From the NCBI RefSeq assembly GCF_002163675.1, contig NZ_CP019334.1, positions 1,064,001 through 1,128,000 of the forward strand: a DNA stretch of 64,000 nucleotides, written 5' to 3'. This DNA is from Polaribacter sp. SA4-12 (GTDB lineage: Bacteria > Bacteroidota > Bacteroidia > Flavobacteriales > Flavobacteriaceae). Shown in pieces: positions 47,592 to 60,857 of this stretch. The notes below the pieces were generated by a model that saw only the letters and a program-made list of their open reading frames with translations, searched no databases and was not told the origin of the DNA. A program made the position numbers and the translations under genes. Each line of letters begins with the position of its first letter. Position 1 is the first letter of the stretch.

Positions 47592-48623
47592 ATGACACAC
47601 TTTCCTAATTTTAAATCTAATAGCAATTCTCTATTAAAAAAGTATTTAACGGAAGATGTGTTTAATGTACTTATCCATAAAAAAACGAAGCTAGGATATT
47701 CACTTCCACAAGCAATTAAATCTGGTTTAATAAATACAGATAGTAGCATTGGAGTTTATGCAGGAGATAAAGAATCTTATGAAGTTTTTAAGGAATTATT
47801 CAATCCAATAATTAAAGAGTATCATAATTTTACTGAAAGTAATAAACATCAAAGTAATTTAAATATAGCCGATTTAGACATCAATAATCCTGACCCAACA
47901 GGAAAATATATTTTATCTACAAGAATTAGAGTTGGTAGAAATCTAAAAGACACGCCTCTTGGTTCTTTAATTTCTGATAAAGAAAGAAATGAAGTAGAAA
48001 CCCTTATTAAAACTGCATTAATGACACTTTCTGGTAATTTAGCAGGTGATTATTATCCCCTGAATAATATGCCTGAAGTAAAGAGAGAAGAAATGACAAA
48101 TAATCATTTTTTATTCAAACAAGGAGATCGTTTTTTAGAAGAAGCGGGTTTAAATAGAAATTGGCCACATGGAAGAGGAATCTATCATAATATCAAAAAA
48201 GATTTCTTAGTTTGGATAAACGAAGAAGACCAAATGAGAATCATTTCCATGCAAAAAGGTGGAAATATTAAAGAGGTTTTTACACGATTAACGATGGCTT
48301 TAAATCAACTAGAAAAACAATTAAGCTTTTCTTATAGCAACCATTTAGGGTATATTTCTTCTTGCCCGACTAATTTAGGAACAGCCATGAGAGCGAGTGT
48401 ACACATATCTTTGCCTCTACTAAGTAAAAATAAATTAGAAGAAATCACAAAAAATCATCATTTACAGATAAGAGGTATTCATGGTGAACATTCTGAAAGT
48501 GAAAACTCCATTTTTGATATCAGTAATCAAAGACGTTTAGGTATTACAGAAATTGAAGCGATTCAAGATTTATATAACGGAGTGGTTGATTTAATAAAAG
48601 AAGAAAAACAATTAGAACTTTAG
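47592..48623 (+). CDS. Phosphagen kinase, arginine-kinase-like
   Basis: 343 residues, the usual length, with both domains. The N-terminal specificity loop DSSIGVYA is of the short arginine-kinase kind (animal arginine kinase reads DSGVGIYA). STRIRVGRN, VWINEEDQMRIISMQKGG (the Glu that positions the guanidinium), CPTNLGT with Cys258 and RGIHGEHSES (second Glu) keep the transition-state residues. It should reversibly phosphorylate arginine from ATP, giving a phosphoarginine energy store. McsB protein-arginine kinases lack the N-terminal domain and are a poorer match. It is monocistronic and has a TAnnTTTG element. Confidence 0.85.
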   Translation: MTHFPNFKSNSNSLLKKYLTEDVFNVLIHKKTKLGYSLPQAIKSGLINTDSSIGVYAGDKESYEVFKELFNPIIKEYHNFTESNKHQSNLNIADLDINNPDPTGKYILSTRIRVGRNLKDTPLGSLISDKERNEVETLIKTALMTLSGNLAGDYYPLNNMPEVKREEMTNNHFLFKQGDRFLEEAGLNRNWPHGRGIYHNIKKDFLVWINEEDQMRIISMQKGGNIKEVFTRLTMALNQLEKQLSFSYSNHLGYISSCPTNLGTAMRASVHISLPLLSKNKLEEITKNHHLQIRGIHGEHSESENSIFDISNQRRLGITEIEAIQDLYNGVVDLIKEEKQLEL

Positions 48624-48657: not shown

Positions 48658-51204
48658 TTAACTAATATTAGACCAAATTTTAGAGGTTTTAGACATTTCT
48701 AAATATGCGCTTTTAATATTTTTATTTTCTGGTTTCGATAAATTAGAATCCTCTTGCAATAAAGCAATAGCAGTATTTCTTGCTGCTACTAAAATTTTAG
48801 AATCTCTAACAACATCGGCAATTTTAAGATCTAAAACACCACTTTGTTGTGTGCCCATTATATTTCCTGGTCCACGTAATTTTAAATCTACTTCTGCTAT
48901 TTTAAAACCATCGGTAGTTTCTACCATCGTTTCTAAACGTGTTTTAGCTTCTGGTGATAATTTATAACTAGAAAGCAAAATACAATAACTTTGGTCTGCT
49001 CCTCGCCCAACTCTTCCTCTTAATTGATGTAATTGCGAAAGTCCAAAACGCTCTGAACTCTCAATAATCATAACACTTGCATTGGGTACATTTACACCAA
49101 CTTCTATTACCGTTGTAGCAACCATAATTTGAGTTTCACCTTTTACAAAACGCTGCATTTCATGTTCTTTATCAGCAGGTTTCATTTGTCCATGAACAAT
49201 ACTAATTTGATATTTTGGTGTTGGAAAATCACGAGAAATACTTTCATAACCATCCATTAAGTCTTTATAATCCATAGCTTCAGATTCTTGAATTAAAGGA
49301 TACACAACATACACTTGTCTCCCTTTTTCAATTTCATCTCTCATAAATTTAAAAACCGACAAACGATTGCTATCAAAACGATGCACCGTTTTTACTTCTT
49401 TTCTTCCTGGAGGTAATTCATCAATAACAGAAATATCTAAATCGCCATAAACAGACATTGCCAAAGTTCTTGGTATTGGTGTTGCTGTCATTACTAAAAT
49501 GTGAGGAGGTAAAGAAGCCCCTCCAACCTCCCCGAAGGGGAGGCTTTTCTCACTGTTGTGTAATTCTTGTGTTATCTTCTTGGTTACATTTTCAATATTT
49601 CCTATTACTTCCTCATTAGTGAATCTGATGACTTTAAAACCTAATTCTGTTAAAATTTGTGTTCTTAATTCGTCAGCTTCTATTTGTTCTTTTGTGTTGT
49701 GATATTTACCATCAACTTCAATAATTAATCGTTTAGAAGTTGAAACAAAATCAACAATAAATTCATCTACAACATGCTGTCTTCTAAATTTAATATCTAA
49801 TTTCTTCGTTTTTAATTGCTCCCAAAGAATTTGTTCCGCTTCGGTAGTCTGTTTTTTTCTGTCTTTCTGTAATTCTTTCATCAATTTATAAACAGAAGGA
49901 CGAGCAGTTTCATAACGATTCCGCACTTCAATTCCCTTCTCTTTGGGAAGGGCTAGGGATGGGCTATTCTTCCCCCATAATTTAGCTCTCTGCGCAACTC
50001 CAAATCGATGTTGTTCATCAATAATTGCAATTCCTAAACTTTTAAACTTTACTTTATCTTCCAACAAAGCATGCGTTCCTATTAAAATATGTAAAGTTCC
50101 ATCTTCTAAATTCGCATGAATTTCTCTTCTCTTTTTTATTTTTACAGAACCCGTTAGAATATCAACATTAATATTCATACCTTTTAAAAGTTCTGAGACT
50201 GCTATAAAATGCTGATTTGCTAAAATCTCAGTAGGCGCCATAATTGTTGCCTGAAAACCATTATCTAACGCCAAAAGCATTGCTAACAGTGCAACAATTG
50301 TTTTTCCAGATCCAACATCACCTTGTAAAAGACGATTCATGTGCGCACCAGAAGCAACATCTTTTCGAATTTCTTTTAACACTCTTTTTTGAGCGTTCGT
50401 TAAATCGAAAGGTAAATGGTCTTTATAAAAAGTATTAAAGTTTTCACCTACATTCTCAAAAATAAATCCTTGTATTTTTGTTTTATTGATGAGTTTCTTC
50501 CTTAATAATTGTAATTGAATGAAAAATAATTCTTCAAACTTTAATCGGTTTTGCGCTTTTGCTAAATTTTCTTGACTTTTAGGAAAGTGAGCATTTAATA
50601 ATGCATCACGTTTACTCATCAATTTAAAATCATTAATAATTTCTTGTGATAAGCTTTCTTGAATTCCATCAAAAACCTGTTCCAATAAATATTGAACATA
50701 CGTTCTCATTAATTTATTAGAAACCCCAGAGTTTGTTAATCTTTCTGTGGATGGATATACAGGTTGCATTTTGGTTTGCAACTTTTTCTTGTATTCTGTT
50801 ACTAATTCTAATTCTGGGTGTGGAATGCTAAAAAACCCATTATAATGATTCAACTTCCCATAAACCACATAAGGTTCATTAATTTTAAGAGCATCTTTAA
50901 TCCATTTTTGCCCTTTAAACCAAACCAATTCCATGGTTCCTGTAGCATCTTGAAAAGTTGCCACTAACCTACTTCCTCTTTTTTGTGCAACAGATTTAAC
51001 TCTTGTTATTTTACCAACAATTTGCACTTCAGAAGAATTTGGTTGTAGCTCCTTTATTTTATAGAAAGCAGTTTTATCAATATATCTAAAAGGGAAAAAA
51101 TTTAATAAATCATTACATGTTTTTAACCCCAATTCTGTGTACAAAAGCGTTGCTCTTTGTACACTGACTCCTTTTATATATGTAATTGGATAACTTAACT
51201 TCAA
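48658..51204 (-). CDS. recG: ATP-dependent DNA helicase RecG with inserted DUF559 nuclease domain
   Basis: 848 residues; flavobacterial RecG is normally about 700. The wedge domain lies in the first 260 residues. Helicase motif I is GDVGSGKT (295-302), motif II DEQH (396-399), and motif III TAT (573-575) follows only after 152 extra residues (414-565). Removing them joins LWGKN to PPHILVMTATPIP, giving 696 residues as in other RecG proteins. The later motifs, including ERFGLSQLHQLRGRVGRG, are intact. The start is TTG at 51204. RecG regresses stalled forks and branches DNA. Confidence 0.93.
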   Translation of the reverse strand: MKLSYPITYIKGVSVQRATLLYTELGLKTCNDLLNFFPFRYIDKTAFYKIKELQPNSSEVQIVGKITRVKSVAQKRGSRLVATFQDATGTMELVWFKGQKWIKDALKINEPYVVYGKLNHYNGFFSIPHPELELVTEYKKKLQTKMQPVYPSTERLTNSGVSNKLMRTYVQYLLEQVFDGIQESLSQEIINDFKLMSKRDALLNAHFPKSQENLAKAQNRLKFEELFFIQLQLLRKKLINKTKIQGFIFENVGENFNTFYKDHLPFDLTNAQKRVLKEIRKDVASGAHMNRLLQGDVGSGKTIVALLAMLLALDNGFQATIMAPTEILANQHFIAVSELLKGMNINVDILTGSVKIKKRREIHANLEDGTLHILIGTHALLEDKVKFKSLGIAIIDEQHRFGVAQRAKLWGKNSPSLALPKEKGIEVRNRYETARPSVYKLMKELQKDRKKQTTEAEQILWEQLKTKKLDIKFRRQHVVDEFIVDFVSTSKRLIIEVDGKYHNTKEQIEADELRTQILTELGFKVIRFTNEEVIGNIENVTKKITQELHNSEKSLPFGEVGGASLPPHILVMTATPIPRTLAMSVYGDLDISVIDELPPGRKEVKTVHRFDSNRLSVFKFMRDEIEKGRQVYVVYPLIQESEAMDYKDLMDGYESISRDFPTPKYQISIVHGQMKPADKEHEMQRFVKGETQIMVATTVIEVGVNVPNASVMIIESSERFGLSQLHQLRGRVGRGADQSYCILLSSYKLSPEAKTRLETMVETTDGFKIAEVDLKLRGPGNIMGTQQSGVLDLKIADVVRDSKILVAARNTAIALLQEDSNLSKPENKNIKSAYLEMSKTSKIWSNIS
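49510..49965 (-). mobile_element. In-frame DUF559 endonuclease-domain insertion in recG
   Basis: 456 bases, exactly 152 codons without a stop. The domain reads ...ILWEQLKTKK, FRRQHVVDEFIVDF (Asp485), RLIIEVDGKYH (Glu496, Asp498, His502), LGFKVIRFTNEEV, and ends with ITQEL: a Vsr/PD-(D/E)XK-like DUF559 fold. Its ends are GC-rich and hairpin-forming in an AT-rich genome: CCCTTC...GAAGGG at the gene's 5' side (near 49934-49956) and CCTCCCC TTC GGGGAGG at its 3' side (near 49527-49543). No intein splice residues are seen. Confidence 0.8.
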
Positions 51205-52457: not shown

Positions 52458-55400
52458 ATGAAAACAATTACTTTCAAAAACATATTACTGCTACTTACAT
52501 TTTCTTTTGTATTAGCTTTAAACAGTAGCGCACAAACTAATATTGCTGGTGTTGTAAACACATATAAAACAGTTTCTGCTATTAGTGGTGTAAACATCAC
52601 ATTAGGAGATGCAACTGGTTTGGCTATAGATGACCCTGTAATGATTATTCAAATGACAGGAATAAGTGGTGGTGGTAATACTGGTGGAACAGACAATGGT
52701 GCAGGTAATTTTCATATTGCTACAATTACAGGTGTTTTTGGTTCTGGTATTACAATAGATAAACCTGTTGTAAAAACTTTTACCCCTTCTACAGAAAAAG
52801 TTCAATTAGTAAGAATTGCCAGATATACAAATGATGTAAATGTTCTTGGTAATGTAACTGCGCAACCTTGGGACGGAAGTACTGGAGGAGTTATTTTTAT
52901 TGATGCATGCCAAAACAACATTACATTAAATGCAGATATTAGTGCAAGTGGTGCTGGTTTTTTTGGAAGAAACACCAATGGAAACGAAACTTCTACGTTT
53001 TGTGGACAAGCACTATCTTTTTTAAATACACCTGAGGAAAACTGGGGTACAAACCCAGCTTATTATGGAAATAACTATCCAAACTTTGTAGCCAATTCAG
53101 GAGGTACTGGTAGAGGTGGTCATGGTGGTTGCGACGATACTCAAGGATCACCAGATGGTGGTGCTGGTGTTGGTGGTGATGGAGCAAATTCAACTTCAGC
53201 AATACTTAGTTCTGGTGGTGGTGGTGGTGGTTACGGTGGTGGTGGTACTGGTGGTGGTAATGGTACCTCTGTTGGTGGTTTTGACGCAACAGCTACTGCA
53301 AACATTTTTGATACTGCTAATAACTTACGTTTTTTTATGGGAGCTACTGGTGGTTCTGAAGCAGAATGGGCTCCAGCAACTGGTAATGGAGGTGGAATTG
53401 TTATAATTTTAGCTGATAATATTACTACAGGCGGAGCAAATAGAGACATTCTTAGTGATGGTGATGCTGGGCCAAATACAGGTACTTTTACTTATGGAAG
53501 TTTTGGGTCTAGAGTTACTGGAGGTGCTGGAGGTGCTGGGTATATAGCTATAAAAGCAAATATCATTAATTCGACTGTAAGAGCCTATGCAAGAGGTGGT
53601 ACAGCAACTGTACAAACTGCCCCAGCTTCACCAACATTTATAGAATATGGTGGTCCTGGTGGTGGTGGTTTTATCATCAGTACAGTGCCAATAACAACTA
53701 AATTAGTTACAAAAGGAGCAATTACAGCAGGTAACGGTGCTAAAGCAGCTGCAGATGGTAAAATTGTTGTAGATAGTAATATTGGTACTGTTTTAAGTTT
53801 GTTATGTGCTGGTGATGCCTGTGATGCAGTAGCTACAGGTAACCCAGATAGAGATAATGATGGTATTTCTGATACTTGTGATTTAGATAATGATAATGAC
53901 GGTATTTTAGATACTATAGAAAGTGGTGGATTTGATCCTTATGGAGACGAAGATGGTGATGGAACTCTAAACTATTTAGATAATTCTGATCTTACTCCTG
54001 TAGATGGTGACCAAGGGTTAACAAATTACACAGATTCTAATGGAGATGGTATTCCTGATGTATATGATGCAGATGGAGATGGTGTACCTAATCATTTAGA
54101 TTTAGATTCAGACAACGATGGTTTAGCAGATGTTATAGAATCTGGTGGGCAAGATATAAATAGAGATGGTTTAGCAGATGGAGCTTCAGGGCCAACAGGT
54201 GTACCAAGTTCTTCTGGCGCAGGTATCACACCAGCTTCATCAGATGGAGATACGCTGCCAAACTATTTAGATATAGATTCAGATAATGATGGTATTCCAG
54301 ATAACATAGAAGGGCAACCTACAAGTGGCTACATACCACCAAGTCTACAAAATGGAGGTATATTTATAGACTCCAATGGTAATGGAGTTGATGATGCTTT
54401 TGAATTTTCTGGTATTATCGGTTTTACCCCAACCAATACAGATGGCACAGACAACCCAGACTATTTAGATGCAGATTCAGATAACGACGGAATTGCAGAT
54501 ATCGTAGAAAATGGAGATACAGATAACGCAATAGTAGATGTAAATGCAGATGCTGATGGAGATGGTTTAAATGATATTTTTGACGATACAGACGATTCTG
54601 CAATTCAAGGAGCTACTGTAAATGACGGAATTAATCCACCAAGTAATCTCAATTTAGGAGATGATGACAATGATTTCTCATTAGGAGGTGATGTAGATTA
54701 TAGAGATAATCCATCTATTACAGATACAGATAACGATGGTATACCAGATTCTATAGATATAGATGATGATAATGATGGTATTTTAGATACAGAAGAAGGT
54801 TGTACACCTGCAACAGGTACATTTACAGAAAATTTATCTTTTACAACGGTAAGTGGTTCTGGTTTTACTTACAGCAGTAATAACATTACATATAATAACC
54901 CTGCATTTGGTCTCGGTTCAGATAATTTTGTAAATAGTACACATTCTCCTAATTTCTCAACCTATGGTGTAACTGGTGATTTCGAATTAGACTTTACTTT
55001 AGATGGCACCTATACAAATAATAATGATAGGGATGTTTATATTGGTATTAACGAAGCAGGTACAGAAGCAAGCATTGGTACTGCAGATGTGGATTATGCT
55101 TTTCGTATTAGAGCAAGTGGTACAGGAATTAGAGTTTACGAAAATGGAACGGATAGAGGAAGTTTGGGTATTACTGGAACAAGTGGTAATATTTTAACCA
55201 TAAGAAAAGTAAGTGCACAAATTACCTATTTAGTCAATGGAACGTTAGAATATACAAGTACTGTTGATGCTAATGGTTCAGATTATTATGTAGACAACTC
55301 ATTTTATGGACAATCGGATGAATTTGATTTAAATACTTTTAATGTTGAATTTAGTACAGTTATAGATGATTTAGACGGAGATGGTATTTCAAACTGTAGA

Positions 55401-58400
55401 GATTTAGATACAGATAATGATGGTATTCCAGACAATATAGAAGCACAATCTACAATTGGGTATATAACTCCTTCTGGAACAGATTCAGATAATGATGGTT
55501 TAGACGATGCTTACGATAGTACACCAAATGGTAATTCAGATGGAACAGGTTCTTTAGGATTAATTCCTCAAAATACAGATGGTACAGACAATGCAGATTA
55601 TAAAGATTTAGATTCAGATAATGATGGTCTTTTTGATGTAGCAGAATCTGGAAGCGGATTAGCACATACAGGTGGAGTTGTAGATGGCGCTCCTGCTGCT
55701 TTTGGTACAAACGGATTAATTAATTCTTTAGATAATGGAGACAATTATACTGATCCAAATGGTTCTTTTGATGAAACACAAACAGATAACTTTACAGATT
55801 CAGATGGAGATATAGGCACAGGGGGAGATGTAGATTACAGAGATATATTTGGTGTTGTAGATACAGATAACGATGGTATTGCAGATGCTGACGATTTGGA
55901 TGATGATAATGATGGTATACTAGATCTTATAGAAAATGGTAATTGTGATGTTTCATCTAAGGAAGAAATAGCTGTTCTTTACAGTGAAGACTTTGGTACT
56001 GGGACAGATAATAGAACAACAAATGCAAATGTTGTGAATCATTTGTATGATACAGCTGGATCAATTCCAGATGGTTCTTACGCAGTAGTTTCATCTCTTG
56101 ATTCAGGATTACAATATTATAATCGAACAGATACTAACGGAGATAAAGATGCAAACATAGATCAATTTTCAGATCCTAATGTTGGAGGTTCTTCTAATGG
56201 TAGGTATTTAGCAATTAACATGATAAATACGGCTCCAACAGAGTTTTTCCGTCAATCGTTATCAAATTTAATTATTGGTGCAGATTATAGATATCGATTA
56301 GATATGGCGGGTTTATGTGATGGATGTCCAGATAAGCCTGAATTTTTGTTAGAAATCCAGCCTAGTGGTGGAGGAACTGCTTTACAAACAATTTCTTCGA
56401 CTACTTTAGCCCCTGTTGTTGGAAATGATGATAATTGGAGAAGAGTAGTGTTAAATTTTACAGCAACTACTAATAGTATTGATATTGTTATTATAAATGA
56501 ACAACCTGCTGGTGGACAGGGTAATGATGTAGGAATAGATAATATTGTATTTGGTGTACTACAATGTCCATCATCTGTAATTGACCCTGATGGAGATGGT
56601 ATTATAAACTCATTAGATTTAGATTCAGATAACGATGGTATTCCAGATGTTATAGAATCTGGAGGTACAGATGCAAATAGAGATGGTAGAGCAGATGATC
56701 CAGTAGGTACTGCACCAACTACTAATGGTATACCAAGTTCTGCAGGTACTGGTAATACACCAACAGATACAGATGGTTCTGTTACAGAAGATCTTCCAGA
56801 CTTTTTAGACATAGATGCAGATAACGATGGAATTCCAGACAATATAGAAGGACAAACCACAAGTGGCTGGGTGGCACCAAGTGGTATAGGTTCTGGAGTT
56901 GGAGGAATTACAGATTTAAATAATAATGGTGTAGATGATAATTACGAAACAGGTGCACTTGTTGGTTTAGATCCTACAAATACAGATAATGCAGATAACC
57001 CAGATTATAAAGACACAGATTCAGATAATGATGGAATTACAGATATTAATGAAAATGGAGATGGAAATACTTTGGCAAATACAGATTTAGACGGAGATGG
57101 TTTAGATGATAATTTTGATGACACAGACGATTCTGCTACAAATGGCTCTACAGTAAACGACAATCATAACCCACCAGCTCCAGGAAATTTAGGAGATGAC
57201 GACAATGATTTCTCAAACGGAGGAAACGTAGATTATAGAGATGTACCAGGAACAGATACTGACAACGATGGAATTCTTGATGTAAACGATTTAGATGATG
57301 ATAATGATGGTATTTTAGATGTGGATGAAGGGCACACACCAGAAAGTACTACGTGTACAACAGTTAACACACCCGTAGCTGGTGTAGGTGGCAGTAATGT
57401 ACAATCAGGGCATGCAATAGCTCCATTTACGGAAATCAATGACGGTGTTGCGATAGATAATGAAGGTTTAGCAATGAATAATCTGGCTCACTATGCTGTA
57501 ATTGACTTAGGTAGTTTAAGAGAATCATCTAGTACAGTTCGTTTCAATTGGTGGCAAAATGTCTCTGCAAATGTCAACCAGCAAACCATAACACAAGTCG
57601 CAACAAGCACCACTAACACACCTGGTACAAATCCTTTAGTTATCAATTACCAAGGTTTTGGTACGAGCGGATCTTTTATTTACACATTAAATGCACCTAC
57701 TCAGTATTTATTAATAGATATGACAGTTAGAAATTCAAGTAGAATTGAAATAACAGAGGTTACAGTAGAGTCAAATTGTGTAACTACTGAAACAACTACA
57801 GATTCAGATGGAGATGGTATACCAAATCACTTAGATATAGATTCAGATAACGATGGTATTCCAGATGTTATAGAATCTGGAGGTACAGATGCAGATAGAG
57901 ATGGTAGAGCAGATGGTACAGTAGGTACTTCTGGTAATACATTAGGTGTTCCAAGTTCTACTACTGGTGGTACAGGAAATACACCAACCAATTCAGATTT
58001 TGATACCATACCAGATTATTTAGATATCGATGCAGATAATGATGGTATTCCAGATAATATAGAAGGACAACCTTCTAAAACCTATGTAGCACCAAGTGGT
58101 GTTGGTTCTGGAGTTGGCGGAATTACAGATGACAATAATAATGGTTTAGATGATAATTATGAAACAGGTGGTTTTGTAGGTATAAACCCAGAAAATACAG
58201 ACGGTACAGACAACCCAGACTATACAGATTTAGATTCTGATAATGATTTTATAGATGATATTTCAGAAAACGGAAATGTAAATAATGTAACCTCTGGTGT
58301 AGATACAGATGGAGATGGTTTAGATGATAATTTTGATGATAATGACGATTCTGGTATTGCAGGAGCTACCGTAAATGATAATCATAATCCACCAGCACCT

Positions 58401-60857
58401 GGTAATTTAGGCGATGTTGATAATGATTTTAACTCAATTGGAGATTTAGATTATAGAGATACTGGAGCCAATGGTTTACCAATCATTACACAAGTATATC
58501 AATTTGGTGATGAAAAATGGATAGAAATAACAAATATTAGTACCACTGCTAGTGTAAATCCAAATTTAATTAATATTCAGTTATATAAAGATAAAACAGG
58601 AGACCAAACAGGCGAAGTTCCAAATGCATTATATACTGTAGTAACAACCCTTGCTCCTGGTAAATCTGTATTGTTTAAAAATTCTGCAAATCTCATCACT
58701 AATTTAGGGGCAAATGCCACTGTAGTAGTAGATGATAATTTAACAGAAATTTCTGGAGGGAATGATATTATTACGTTATCATCAAAAATTAATTCTAATT
58801 CTTACAAGTTTAGATATGATGAAATTACCAGCGTTACAGATAAAACCTCTTTTGTAAGAATAGACGAAACTCTAACAGGAAATAAGAACTATACACCATC
58901 AGAATGGGTAGTTTTTGTAGACGATGCTCTAGATCCATACAGATTATTAGGAGCAGGAGGTACTGAAAGACATCCTCATGACCCACTTATTTCTGAAATT
59001 ATAAGTTCTAATACAGACGCAAATACAATGTTAGGTTTGCACAGAGTAGATATTACAACTAGAACAGGTTCTGCTTGGTCTAATGGTTTCCCTGACCGTT
59101 CACGTTTTGTAGTGATAGATGAAGATTATGACCATTCTACAGCAAGATTAAGTGCCAGAAAACTAGAAATAGACAACAATAGTAAATTAGTTGTTACTAA
59201 TAATCTATTGGTTGTTACTAATGATGTAAACTTAACCAATGCTAATGATGAAATTCGTTTGGTAGGTACCTCACAATTAGTACAAACTCATACAGATGCT
59301 ACGAAGGTATCTGGACTTGGAAAACTTTTAGTAGATCAAAACTCTACAGTACCAAGTTTTTATAGATATAATTACATGAGTTCGCCTGTTACTTCTAACG
59401 GTACAACATATAGCTTAGAAACTGTTTTTAAAGATGGTACAACCCCTTTAGCTGCTTCAAATACTATTCAAGACATTACTTTTGTAGGTGGTTATGATGG
59501 TAATCATAATACAAATCCTATTTCTTTAGCTAGCTATTGGATTTATACCTATTCACCTTCTACTGATGGTCGTTCTAATTGGGCACAAAGGTCTGAAACA
59601 GGAACTATTGCTGCAGGAGATGGATTTATATTTAAAGGTCCGGGTGTTGCACAAAATTATACATTTACTGGAATCCCTAATGATGGTAATCTTGATGCTT
59701 CTAACATTGGTGCAGGACAATCTTATTTAGTAGGAAATCCTTTTTCTTCTGCTATAAGTGTTAAAAAATTTATAGAAGATAATGACAGCTCATTAACAGG
59801 AACACTTTATTTTTGGCAACATGCTTCTGAAGTAAATTCCCAAGCAGGTACTTCTACAGGACATAATTTTGCAGGATATATTGGTGGGTATGCTACTAGA
59901 ACTATTGATTTAGGTGTTGCGGCAAATGCTTATACTGTAAATCAAAGTAATGGAACTAGTGGTACAGGAACAGGTCATACGTATGATGCTCCAGGGCTCT
60001 ATATTCCTATCGGTCAAGGTTTCTTTATAGAAGGTGATGCAACCGGAGGTGCTGTTGTATTTAACAATAGTCAAAGAGAATTTATTGATGAAGCGGCAGG
60101 CGTTTCTGTATTCTTTAAAGGAGAAGAAACTGCTTCTAAAAATACCGGAAATTATGAAAACACTGTACCAATCATTAAATTAGGTATGGATTACTTAAAC
60201 GAGCAAGCAATAAGTATTCACCGTCAAATCGGAATCTCGTTTAATCCTAACAATACTTTTGAGTATGAAAAAGGATATGATGCAGGTATCTATGACATAA
60301 GTACCACTGACTTTTATTGGAAATTTCCAACTGATGACACTAAATATGTAATCTCTGGTATACAAGATATAACTAGTGATTTAGAAGTACCGTTAGAAAT
60401 AACAATGGGATATTCTGGTGAGGTTTCAATTACTGTAGATGAAATAAAAAATGTAAGTGAAAACGTATATATTATAGATAAAACAACTGGTATCTTTTAT
60501 GAGATTATAAATACTAAAGCTGTATTAAATCTAAATGAAGGTGTATACACAGATAGATTTGTTTTAGGATTTAAACCCAACACCGCTTTATCTACAGATG
60601 ATATTATTGATAATGCATACACAAACGTTTATGCAGATAATAAAAATCATACGTTAGTGATCTCTAAAAATTTAGAAGTTGATATTACAAATGTTGAACT
60701 CTACAATATATTAGGTGAAAAAGTGAGTCTTTGGAAAATTAAAAAACAAAATAATTCTTACAAATTAGACATTAAAAAACAAATACCAACAGGTATTTAT
60801 ATAGTTAGACTAAACACTAGTAAAGGTGAAATTAATAAGAAAATCGTGATTGAATAA
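52458..60857 (+). CDS. Giant T9SS adhesin with thrombospondin type 3 superrepeats
   Basis: 2799 residues. Signal peptide (1-26); glycine-rich domain (about 210-330); then four superrepeats of DxDxDGxxD calcium-binding thrombospondin type 3 units (about 464-780, 970-1165, 1377-1627, 1783-2004). Three beta-sandwich, lectin-like domains separate them (about 784-967, 1167-1374, 1629-1777). A lamin-tail-like domain (about 2005-2170) and the module shared with the 34211 gene (about 2170-2715) follow, and a T9SS type A sorting domain ends the protein (PTGIYIVRLNTSKGEINKKIVIE). It is secreted and surface-bound, probably stiffened by calcium and used in adhesion. Confidence 0.9.
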   Translation: MKTITFKNILLLLTFSFVLALNSSAQTNIAGVVNTYKTVSAISGVNITLGDATGLAIDDPVMIIQMTGISGGGNTGGTDNGAGNFHIATITGVFGSGITIDKPVVKTFTPSTEKVQLVRIARYTNDVNVLGNVTAQPWDGSTGGVIFIDACQNNITLNADISASGAGFFGRNTNGNETSTFCGQALSFLNTPEENWGTNPAYYGNNYPNFVANSGGTGRGGHGGCDDTQGSPDGGAGVGGDGANSTSAILSSGGGGGGYGGGGTGGGNGTSVGGFDATATANIFDTANNLRFFMGATGGSEAEWAPATGNGGGIVIILADNITTGGANRDILSDGDAGPNTGTFTYGSFGSRVTGGAGGAGYIAIKANIINSTVRAYARGGTATVQTAPASPTFIEYGGPGGGGFIISTVPITTKLVTKGAITAGNGAKAAADGKIVVDSNIGTVLSLLCAGDACDAVATGNPDRDNDGISDTCDLDNDNDGILDTIESGGFDPYGDEDGDGTLNYLDNSDLTPVDGDQGLTNYTDSNGDGIPDVYDADGDGVPNHLDLDSDNDGLADVIESGGQDINRDGLADGASGPTGVPSSSGAGITPASSDGDTLPNYLDIDSDNDGIPDNIEGQPTSGYIPPSLQNGGIFIDSNGNGVDDAFEFSGIIGFTPTNTDGTDNPDYLDADSDNDGIADIVENGDTDNAIVDVNADADGDGLNDIFDDTDDSAIQGATVNDGINPPSNLNLGDDDNDFSLGGDVDYRDNPSITDTDNDGIPDSIDIDDDNDGILDTEEGCTPATGTFTENLSFTTVSGSGFTYSSNNITYNNPAFGLGSDNFVNSTHSPNFSTYGVTGDFELDFTLDGTYTNNNDRDVYIGINEAGTEASIGTADVDYAFRIRASGTGIRVYENGTDRGSLGITGTSGNILTIRKVSAQITYLVNGTLEYTSTVDANGSDYYVDNSFYGQSDEFDLNTFNVEFSTVIDDLDGDGISNCRDLDTDNDGIPDNIEAQSTIGYITPSGTDSDNDGLDDAYDSTPNGNSDGTGSLGLIPQNTDGTDNADYKDLDSDNDGLFDVAESGSGLAHTGGVVDGAPAAFGTNGLINSLDNGDNYTDPNGSFDETQTDNFTDSDGDIGTGGDVDYRDIFGVVDTDNDGIADADDLDDDNDGILDLIENGNCDVSSKEEIAVLYSEDFGTGTDNRTTNANVVNHLYDTAGSIPDGSYAVVSSLDSGLQYYNRTDTNGDKDANIDQFSDPNVGGSSNGRYLAINMINTAPTEFFRQSLSNLIIGADYRYRLDMAGLCDGCPDKPEFLLEIQPSGGGTALQTISSTTLAPVVGNDDNWRRVVLNFTATTNSIDIVIINEQPAGGQGNDVGIDNIVFGVLQCPSSVIDPDGDGIINSLDLDSDNDGIPDVIESGGTDANRDGRADDPVGTAPTTNGIPSSAGTGNTPTDTDGSVTEDLPDFLDIDADNDGIPDNIEGQTTSGWVAPSGIGSGVGGITDLNNNGVDDNYETGALVGLDPTNTDNADNPDYKDTDSDNDGITDINENGDGNTLANTDLDGDGLDDNFDDTDDSATNGSTVNDNHNPPAPGNLGDDDNDFSNGGNVDYRDVPGTDTDNDGILDVNDLDDDNDGILDVDEGHTPESTTCTTVNTPVAGVGGSNVQSGHAIAPFTEINDGVAIDNEGLAMNNLAHYAVIDLGSLRESSSTVRFNWWQNVSANVNQQTITQVATSTTNTPGTNPLVINYQGFGTSGSFIYTLNAPTQYLLIDMTVRNSSRIEITEVTVESNCVTTETTTDSDGDGIPNHLDIDSDNDGIPDVIESGGTDADRDGRADGTVGTSGNTLGVPSSTTGGTGNTPTNSDFDTIPDYLDIDADNDGIPDNIEGQPSKTYVAPSGVGSGVGGITDDNNNGLDDNYETGGFVGINPENTDGTDNPDYTDLDSDNDFIDDISENGNVNNVTSGVDTDGDGLDDNFDDNDDSGIAGATVNDNHNPPAPGNLGDVDNDFNSIGDLDYRDTGANGLPIITQVYQFGDEKWIEITNISTTASVNPNLINIQLYKDKTGDQTGEVPNALYTVVTTLAPGKSVLFKNSANLITNLGANATVVVDDNLTEISGGNDIITLSSKINSNSYKFRYDEITSVTDKTSFVRIDETLTGNKNYTPSEWVVFVDDALDPYRLLGAGGTERHPHDPLISEIISSNTDANTMLGLHRVDITTRTGSAWSNGFPDRSRFVVIDEDYDHSTARLSARKLEIDNNSKLVVTNNLLVVTNDVNLTNANDEIRLVGTSQLVQTHTDATKVSGLGKLLVDQNSTVPSFYRYNYMSSPVTSNGTTYSLETVFKDGTTPLAASNTIQDITFVGGYDGNHNTNPISLASYWIYTYSPSTDGRSNWAQRSETGTIAAGDGFIFKGPGVAQNYTFTGIPNDGNLDASNIGAGQSYLVGNPFSSAISVKKFIEDNDSSLTGTLYFWQHASEVNSQAGTSTGHNFAGYIGGYATRTIDLGVAANAYTVNQSNGTSGTGTGHTYDAPGLYIPIGQGFFIEGDATGGAVVFNNSQREFIDEAAGVSVFFKGEETASKNTGNYENTVPIIKLGMDYLNEQAISIHRQIGISFNPNNTFEYEKGYDAGIYDISTTDFYWKFPTDDTKYVISGIQDITSDLEVPLEITMGYSGEVSITVDEIKNVSENVYIIDKTTGIFYEIINTKAVLNLNEGVYTDRFVLGFKPNTALSTDDIIDNAYTNVYADNKNHTLVISKNLEVDITNVELYNILGEKVSLWKIKKQNNSYKLDIKKQIPTGIYIVRLNTSKGEINKKIVIE

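Follow-up and report, generated by a model that had tools for sequence, protein, structure and literature searches.

A DUF559 nuclease insert with inverted hairpin ends lies in frame within RecG and is probably mobile

How does a gene for the helicase RecG come to carry a nuclease in the middle of its reading frame, and what becomes of that nuclease once it is there? The question is raised by a window of 64,000 nucleotides (the whole stretch of DNA that was analyzed) from a genome of 3.99 Mb in a single contig, whose nearest named relatives, among the matches listed, are Polaribacter. Its recG open reading frame (ORF) (Table 1) contains the RecG_wedge, tRNA_anti-codon (OB), DEAD, Helicase_C, and RecG_dom3_C domains (Pfam). 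A DUF559 domain (PF04480) lies within the same ORF, after motif II (DEQH) and before TATPIP, as the first-pass annotation had read it from the letters. The limits of the insert follow from relatives with an unoccupied RecG (e.g., L036 and L037): these join LWxKN directly to SLPPHILVM, whereas the window has AGCCC...GGGCT between LWGKN and SLPPHILVM, and the element therefore occupies positions 49516-49965. The earlier figures of 456 bp (152 codons) for the insert and 696 residues for RecG without it are corrected to 450 bp (150 codons) and 698 amino acids (aa).

Table 1. Features of recG and its insert, with positions in the window
Feature	Positions	Strand	Evidence
recG, 848-aa ORF with TTG start, insert in frame	48658..51204	-	profile domains
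RecG host segment from motif II (DEQH, residues 396-399) up to the insertion point	49966..50019	-	
Element, 450 bp = 150 codons, residues 414-563	49516..49965	-	inverted AGCCC / GGGCT; empty-site comparison
5' end (coding sense): tail AGCCCATCCCTAG, then hairpin arms CCCTTC + GAAGGG; linker SPSLALPKEKG	49934..49965	-	
DUF559 (PF04480) Vsr-like nuclease domain, RecG residues 446-548	49561..49869	-	
3' end (coding sense): hairpin CCTCCCC-TTC-GGGGAGG, then tail TTGGAGGGGCT; linker SLPFGEVGGA	49516..49543	-	
RecG host segment SLPPHILVMTATPIP, residues 564-578, past the insertion point	49471..49515	-	

Between occupied and empty relatives, no target-site duplication, a hallmark of DDE-type insertion sequences, is visible at the RecG insertion site. 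The site is a locally variable linker, at the 29th to 59th percentile of conservation. Targeting of a conserved site, as in inteins, was rejected because conservation here is about average.

The match to PF04480 is strong (E = 1.8e-30; 105.4 bits against a gathering cut-off of 20.6). The DUF559 core had been described as complete, and residues of the predicted active site are present: D485, E496, D498, and H502 of RecG, corresponding to D72, E83, D85, and H89 of the insert. These four belong to the six positions that are invariant across 54 sequences (E44, D72, E83, D85, H89, and D98). In sequence and fold the domain is similar to Vsr and to the homing endonuclease I-Bth0305I (3r3p), and the insert likely encodes a DNA-cutting enzyme of the Vsr/EDxHD type.

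The two ends of the element are inverted relative to each other, with a C-rich tail outside the left hairpin and a G-rich tail outside the right one; the GC-rich hairpin ends of the first-pass annotation are thus present as a C/G-rich hairpin plus tail on both sides. A 17-nucleotide (nt) pattern of the right end occurs once in the window, exactly, at its own site (shuffled sequence would give 0.04 matches with up to three mismatches). Folded as single-stranded DNA, the two ends do just modestly better than shuffles (z = -1.6 and -1.8), and covariation in the hairpins is biased because these had been selected for pairing. Both end-encoded linkers have a pLDDT below 50 in the RecG structure model. 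We also considered absence of stop codons as a design feature of the ends and rejected it (44 of 85 ends are stop-free in all frames, versus 16% of control 31-mers).

The same kind of ends had been anticipated outside RecG, and they flank DUF559 inserts in unrelated genes and also occur, without DUF559, elsewhere in the window's own genome. The pattern CCYYCCCNNNGGGRRGG is found at 12 places in this genome, the RecG 3' end among them (11 others), while a control pattern is found at none. Some of these hairpins form inverted pairs of 120 to 171 bp with tails of the AAGCCCATCC...GGATGGGCTT type, mostly intergenic according to frame checks that are ambiguous for L322. One such mini-element, L315, shares 29 of 31 nt of its left end with that of the RecG element (counted by eye). 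An inner motif that they share, ACACAACAGTG, reads identically in L001, L028, and one own-genome mini-element, which is no more than suggestive. Another mini-element, L329, has a full-length match in at least 5 of 97 genomes, its own included; elsewhere in the 97, the stretch between the neighboring genes has diverged too far for a clean empty site to be recognized.

We next turn to the presence of the element in related recG genes. In the 97 genomes of the genus, 101 loci were read, of which 90 gave a RecG frame containing both motifs. The remaining 11 comprise ten with other hosts or a free DUF559, plus L051, an unoccupied RecG in which a motif was missed. RecG is occupied in 24 and unoccupied in 66 of the 90 readable genes, the latter providing the empty sites that had been expected in close relatives. 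Most unoccupied genes have a plain 19-residue link (48 genes), 16 have another, longer link, and 2 (L173 and L057) retain a lone 3' end in frame, a scar reading KSLPFGEVGGA or IPSGEFGGA. On a tree of RecG sequences from which the link had been removed, occupancy takes 17 changes, at least 12 of them forced by starred branches. With shuffled labels the mean was 21.5 changes, and no more than 17 were needed in 6 of 500 shuffles, so occupancy is only weakly inherited. Even sister RecG genes differ in state, for example L026 (occupied) and L050 (empty), which share a branch with a support of 100.

The histories of insert and host also conflict. For the 17 hairpin-bearing copies, the insert alignment rejects the host tree (P = 0.00014 [by an AU test]) and the reverse comparison, of the host alignment with the insert tree, also ends in rejection (P = 3.6e-10). 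In the pairs L019/L024, L009/L011, and L007/L016, third positions are 2.4 to 4 times less divergent in the insert than in the host (0.034 versus 0.140 for L019/L024). Over all occupied pairs the mean insert-to-host ratio is 1.11, and most of the spread is therefore not recent. At fourfold sites around the RecG site we observed no signal of co-conversion at species distance (near-minus-far difference of -0.013 in occupied and -0.006 in empty pairs). A hint of it, in that nearby third positions were less diverged in most pairs with L001, was gone once fourfold sites and the empty-pair control were used. Movement of the element between lineages at the RecG site is well supported by these comparisons. 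The proposal that the insert is mobile DNA gains support from the empty sites, the patchy presence, the conflict between trees, and the scars, and also from the other hosts.

A DUF559 match is present in 65 of the 97 genus genomes, and among those copies that were examined, most are in RecG, LeuRS, MetH, and HsdR frames. Named genomes were scanned as well; the best 80 of 577 loci, a choice that favors intact domains, yielded 87 DUF559 hits, and the 81 with a score of at least 50 were used. In this sample, 70 of the 81 lie in open frames 333 aa or longer; the remaining 11 lie in short frames. A check of 18 of the frames from these best 80 loci against NCBIfam placed HutU, IleRS, ValRS, MazG, PaaZ, PurL, RdgB, WecB, guanylate kinase, LeuRS, MetRS, and MetH above the cut-off, so that, RecG included, NCBIfam names at least 13 host families. 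GH31 and RecB-like hosts fell below the cut-off. The remaining host names were assigned by sequence motifs, and HsdR and UvrC are presumed by motif alone. In two guanylate kinase frames DUF559 is placed ahead of the kinase, and the MetH of L280 has two DUF559 domains. A hairpin end accompanies all 81 hits on at least one side and 71 of them on both (again from the best 80 of 577 loci), compared with 12 of 152 distant control windows. Each of the 11 short-frame copies (among L202-L281) likewise shows a hairpin end at one side or both.

In a tree of 77 DUF559 domains, which comes from a short alignment and has many open forks, the 24 RecG rows form one side of a branch (support, 99), as do the 9 MetH rows, which carry three family codes (support, 95). 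The six host labels take six changes; for LeuRS considered singly the number is five, and the HsdR copies do not stay together. The tree omits L112 and L113, which scored low, L110 and L111, which had no hit, and L092, which is a second cut of one and the same RecG match.

How, then, might the element move and persist? The reading we prefer, with a probability of roughly two in three, is that of an in-frame, non-splicing, homing-like element with REPIN-like ends, whose DNA cutting and retention in the protein we infer from sequence. The family would live in frame within conserved genes, and each element would code solely for a Vsr/EDxHD-type nuclease domain between two inverted hairpin-plus-tail ends. 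As there is no stop codon within the element, the nuclease would be made as part of RecG, with the ends serving as flexible linkers. Each lineage would keep largely to one site in one gene: the nuclease would cut or nick an unoccupied cognate allele, and repair would copy the element in. The ends may serve when an element enters a new gene, which is rarer, and may also serve the small copies found at other places in the genome. When a lineage decays, ends and active site would be lost together, after which the dead domain may stay, as in LeuRS of the same genome, or be deleted, leaving a scar. Counted against the homing part are the lack of a target duplication and of a co-conversion tract, the average conservation of the site, and the LeuRS and HsdR copies, neither of which forms one group.

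I-Bth0305I resides in a self-splicing intron. The molecule name of 3r3p in the PDB is "Mobile intron protein." The RecG nuclease is like this EDxHD homing endonuclease in its Vsr-like fold and is related to it in sequence but, unlike it, is in frame with its host, with no splicing element found. In common with EDxHD homing endonucleases, the RecG element has both occupied and empty cognate sites and has spread against the host tree. Homing endonucleases are the closest precedent for its site fidelity (PMC3943268, PMC2814812). The closest precedent for palindromic inserts that keep the frame is the RPE and WPE of Rickettsia and Wolbachia, palindrome-type elements that lie in frame in unrelated genes (PMC10969869, PMC4224334). 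The RecG element is likewise palindromic and in frame, with several unrelated host genes, but it has 450 bp and a nuclease domain, where the RPEs, in the same papers, have ~150 bp and a short conserved peptide (PMC10969869, PMC4224334). A DUF559-containing gene has been assigned to the EDxHD family in a passage on inteins (PMC9403480). In the literature searched, which most subscription papers lie outside, we came across no account in which DUF559 is an in-frame mobile element.

Homing nucleases usually reside in introns, in inteins, or between genes, which spares the host. The elements described here seem to manage without such a refuge, as a compact domain between flexible linkers, in mid-protein, where only in-frame loss would be tolerated. 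A wider proposal, for which we see slightly less than an even chance, is that they represent a third way into essential genes, by permanent in-frame fusion without RNA or protein splicing. A Vsr-type nuclease would home to one site per lineage and also mobilize a REPIN-like family that includes small nonautonomous copies, in at least 13 conserved families in Bacteroidota. If true, they would form a natural catalogue of sites in RecG, tRNA synthetases, MetH, and others that accept a domain of ~150 residues, give a common "DUF" a likely role, supply a candidate new enzyme for REP-like repeats, and explain odd RecG or LeuRS annotations on proteins of ~140 residues.

The most serious competitor, a real possibility that we nonetheless hold to be clearly the less probable, is transposon-like movement. 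Here the nuclease would nick its own hairpin ends and the element would move as a cut or copied unit, like REPIN/IS200 with a Vsr-type enzyme; the clustering at sites would reflect rare jumps plus recombination of the flanks between species. The 5' end and the reversed 3' end of the same element agree at 20.1 of 31 positions, compared with 19.2 between elements of the same host, 16.3 between hosts, and 11.3 for shuffled letters, and small inverted-end copies exist elsewhere in the genome. In the same direction points the distribution across genomes. The hairpin pattern is found in 37 of the 97 genus genomes (among the matches listed). By genome lists compiled by hand from the matches listed, an intact DUF559 element is present in 18 of the 22 genomes with at least three hairpins and in 8 of the 75 others (P = 4.5e-10, a value inflated by phylogeny and by the elements' own ends); the corresponding association for Y1_Tnp has a P value of 0.095. 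REPIN/RAYT systems consist of inverted hairpin-plus-tail pairs, and their small copies are mostly intergenic. The element family shares both properties but differs in that its genome lacks a Y1_Tnp match and its encoded enzyme is of the Vsr type. Against transposon-like movement, the RecG and MetH lineages stay at one site.

A model in which an unrelated transposase moves the ends as REP-type repeats and DUF559 is a passenger is unlikely. Among the matches listed, 12 of the 37 genomes that have the hairpin pattern lack an intact DUF559 element in the lists compiled, and four of these (G006, G015, G088, and G094) have at least three hairpins, which speaks for a passenger role and weakens the case that the nuclease moves the ends. 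However, a profile search for Y1_Tnp/REP transposases (E ≤ 0.001) had 0 matches in the window's own genome, for which mobilization by a RAYT was rejected, and among the matches listed Y1_Tnp is also missing from G001, G017, G020, G021, and G096; each of these six genomes has 3 to 18 hairpins and an intact element, and the transposase search covered the Y1_Tnp type.

Also at odds with a passenger role, loss of the hairpin ends goes together with loss of the active site. Of 62 intragenic copies, 47 combine at least one hairpin end with the D72/E83/D85 core, 10 lack both, 5 show just the core, and none has the hairpin only. In RecG alone the numbers are 17, 5, 2, and 0 (P = 0.0005), although such counts are phylogenetically nonindependent, the seven hairpin-less RecG copies falling in about three lineages. 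Five LeuRS copies with VEFSG, including L002 of the window's own genome, have lost the core and kept the frame. L002 (G000:C1:3136387-3136674, outside the window) is an old insert in the editing domain, and hairpin ends were not found on it.

Quite improbable, in our view, is a useful fusion in which the nuclease gives RecG the ability to cut branched DNA and selection keeps the insert. The insert is in frame and under purifying selection (median dN/dS of 0.18 over 92 pairs), as such a function would predict. Yet 66 of the 90 RecG genes do without it, the same domain occurs in tRNA synthetases, MetH, PurL, and others, and the 5 of 24 RecG copies that lack the D/E/D core persist. We rejected this explanation as the main reading on host variety and decay. 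The suggestion that nuclease and RecG form a fork-processing machine is unsupported for the same reason, since the nuclease sits in unrelated hosts, methionine synthase included, and copies with a broken active site persist.

Least probable is removal of the block at the RNA or protein level, by a novel intron, an intein, or hairpin-based ribosome bypass: inverted hairpin ends could bring the junctions together, but the reading frame runs through both ends in each of the 24 occupied RecG genes, which together with the 67 uninterrupted ones account for all 91 of the 97 genomes with RecG over the cut-off (among the matches listed), and hairpin-less copies and scars remain in frame too. The earlier remark that intein and intron features are absent holds, and both were rejected on the searches: Rfam (E ≤ 5) gave no intron family in 49300-50200, with two unrelated subthreshold hits, and the nine Pfam families in the RecG ORF at E ≤ 0.001 include no Hint domain. 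Inteins share with the RecG element an in-frame position, a nuclease, patchy presence, and conserved host genes. They differ in having a Hint domain and in preferring conserved sites (PMC2814812), whereas the RecG element sits in a variable linker. By the reading we prefer, the insert most likely remains in the finished protein.

Several minor observations were made along the way. A 143-aa DUF559 protein is annotated "histidinol dehydrogenase/leucyl-tRNA synthetase/ATP-dependent DNA helicase RecG," while the name of methionine synthase is given to another two, which have 132 to 138 aa (P0176, P0134, P0163). These names are annotation spill-over from hosts, and histidinol dehydrogenase may be a further host. 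Methionine synthase itself is one long ORF in some genus genomes and two ORFs elsewhere (337 + 892 aa in the window's own genome), among the matches listed. In L217, filed as a Limnohabitans sp. metagenome-assembled genome, RecG is 61% and 75% identical to that of the window on either side of the DUF559 insert, so L217 is probably a misbinned Bacteroidota contig. The recG of G028 (L180) is possibly damaged: its match starts at family position 125, with stops in the stretch and a scar-like link (among the matches listed). A viral scan gave RecG relatives at 20 loci. Within the window, the ORF at 47592-48623 resembles, as we take it, an ATP:guanido phosphotransferase of the arginine or creatine kinase type, unusual in a bacterium. 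A 2,799-aa ORF at 52458-60857, with many DNDGI-type repeats and a C-terminal sorting-like tail, presumably encodes a large calcium-binding surface protein.
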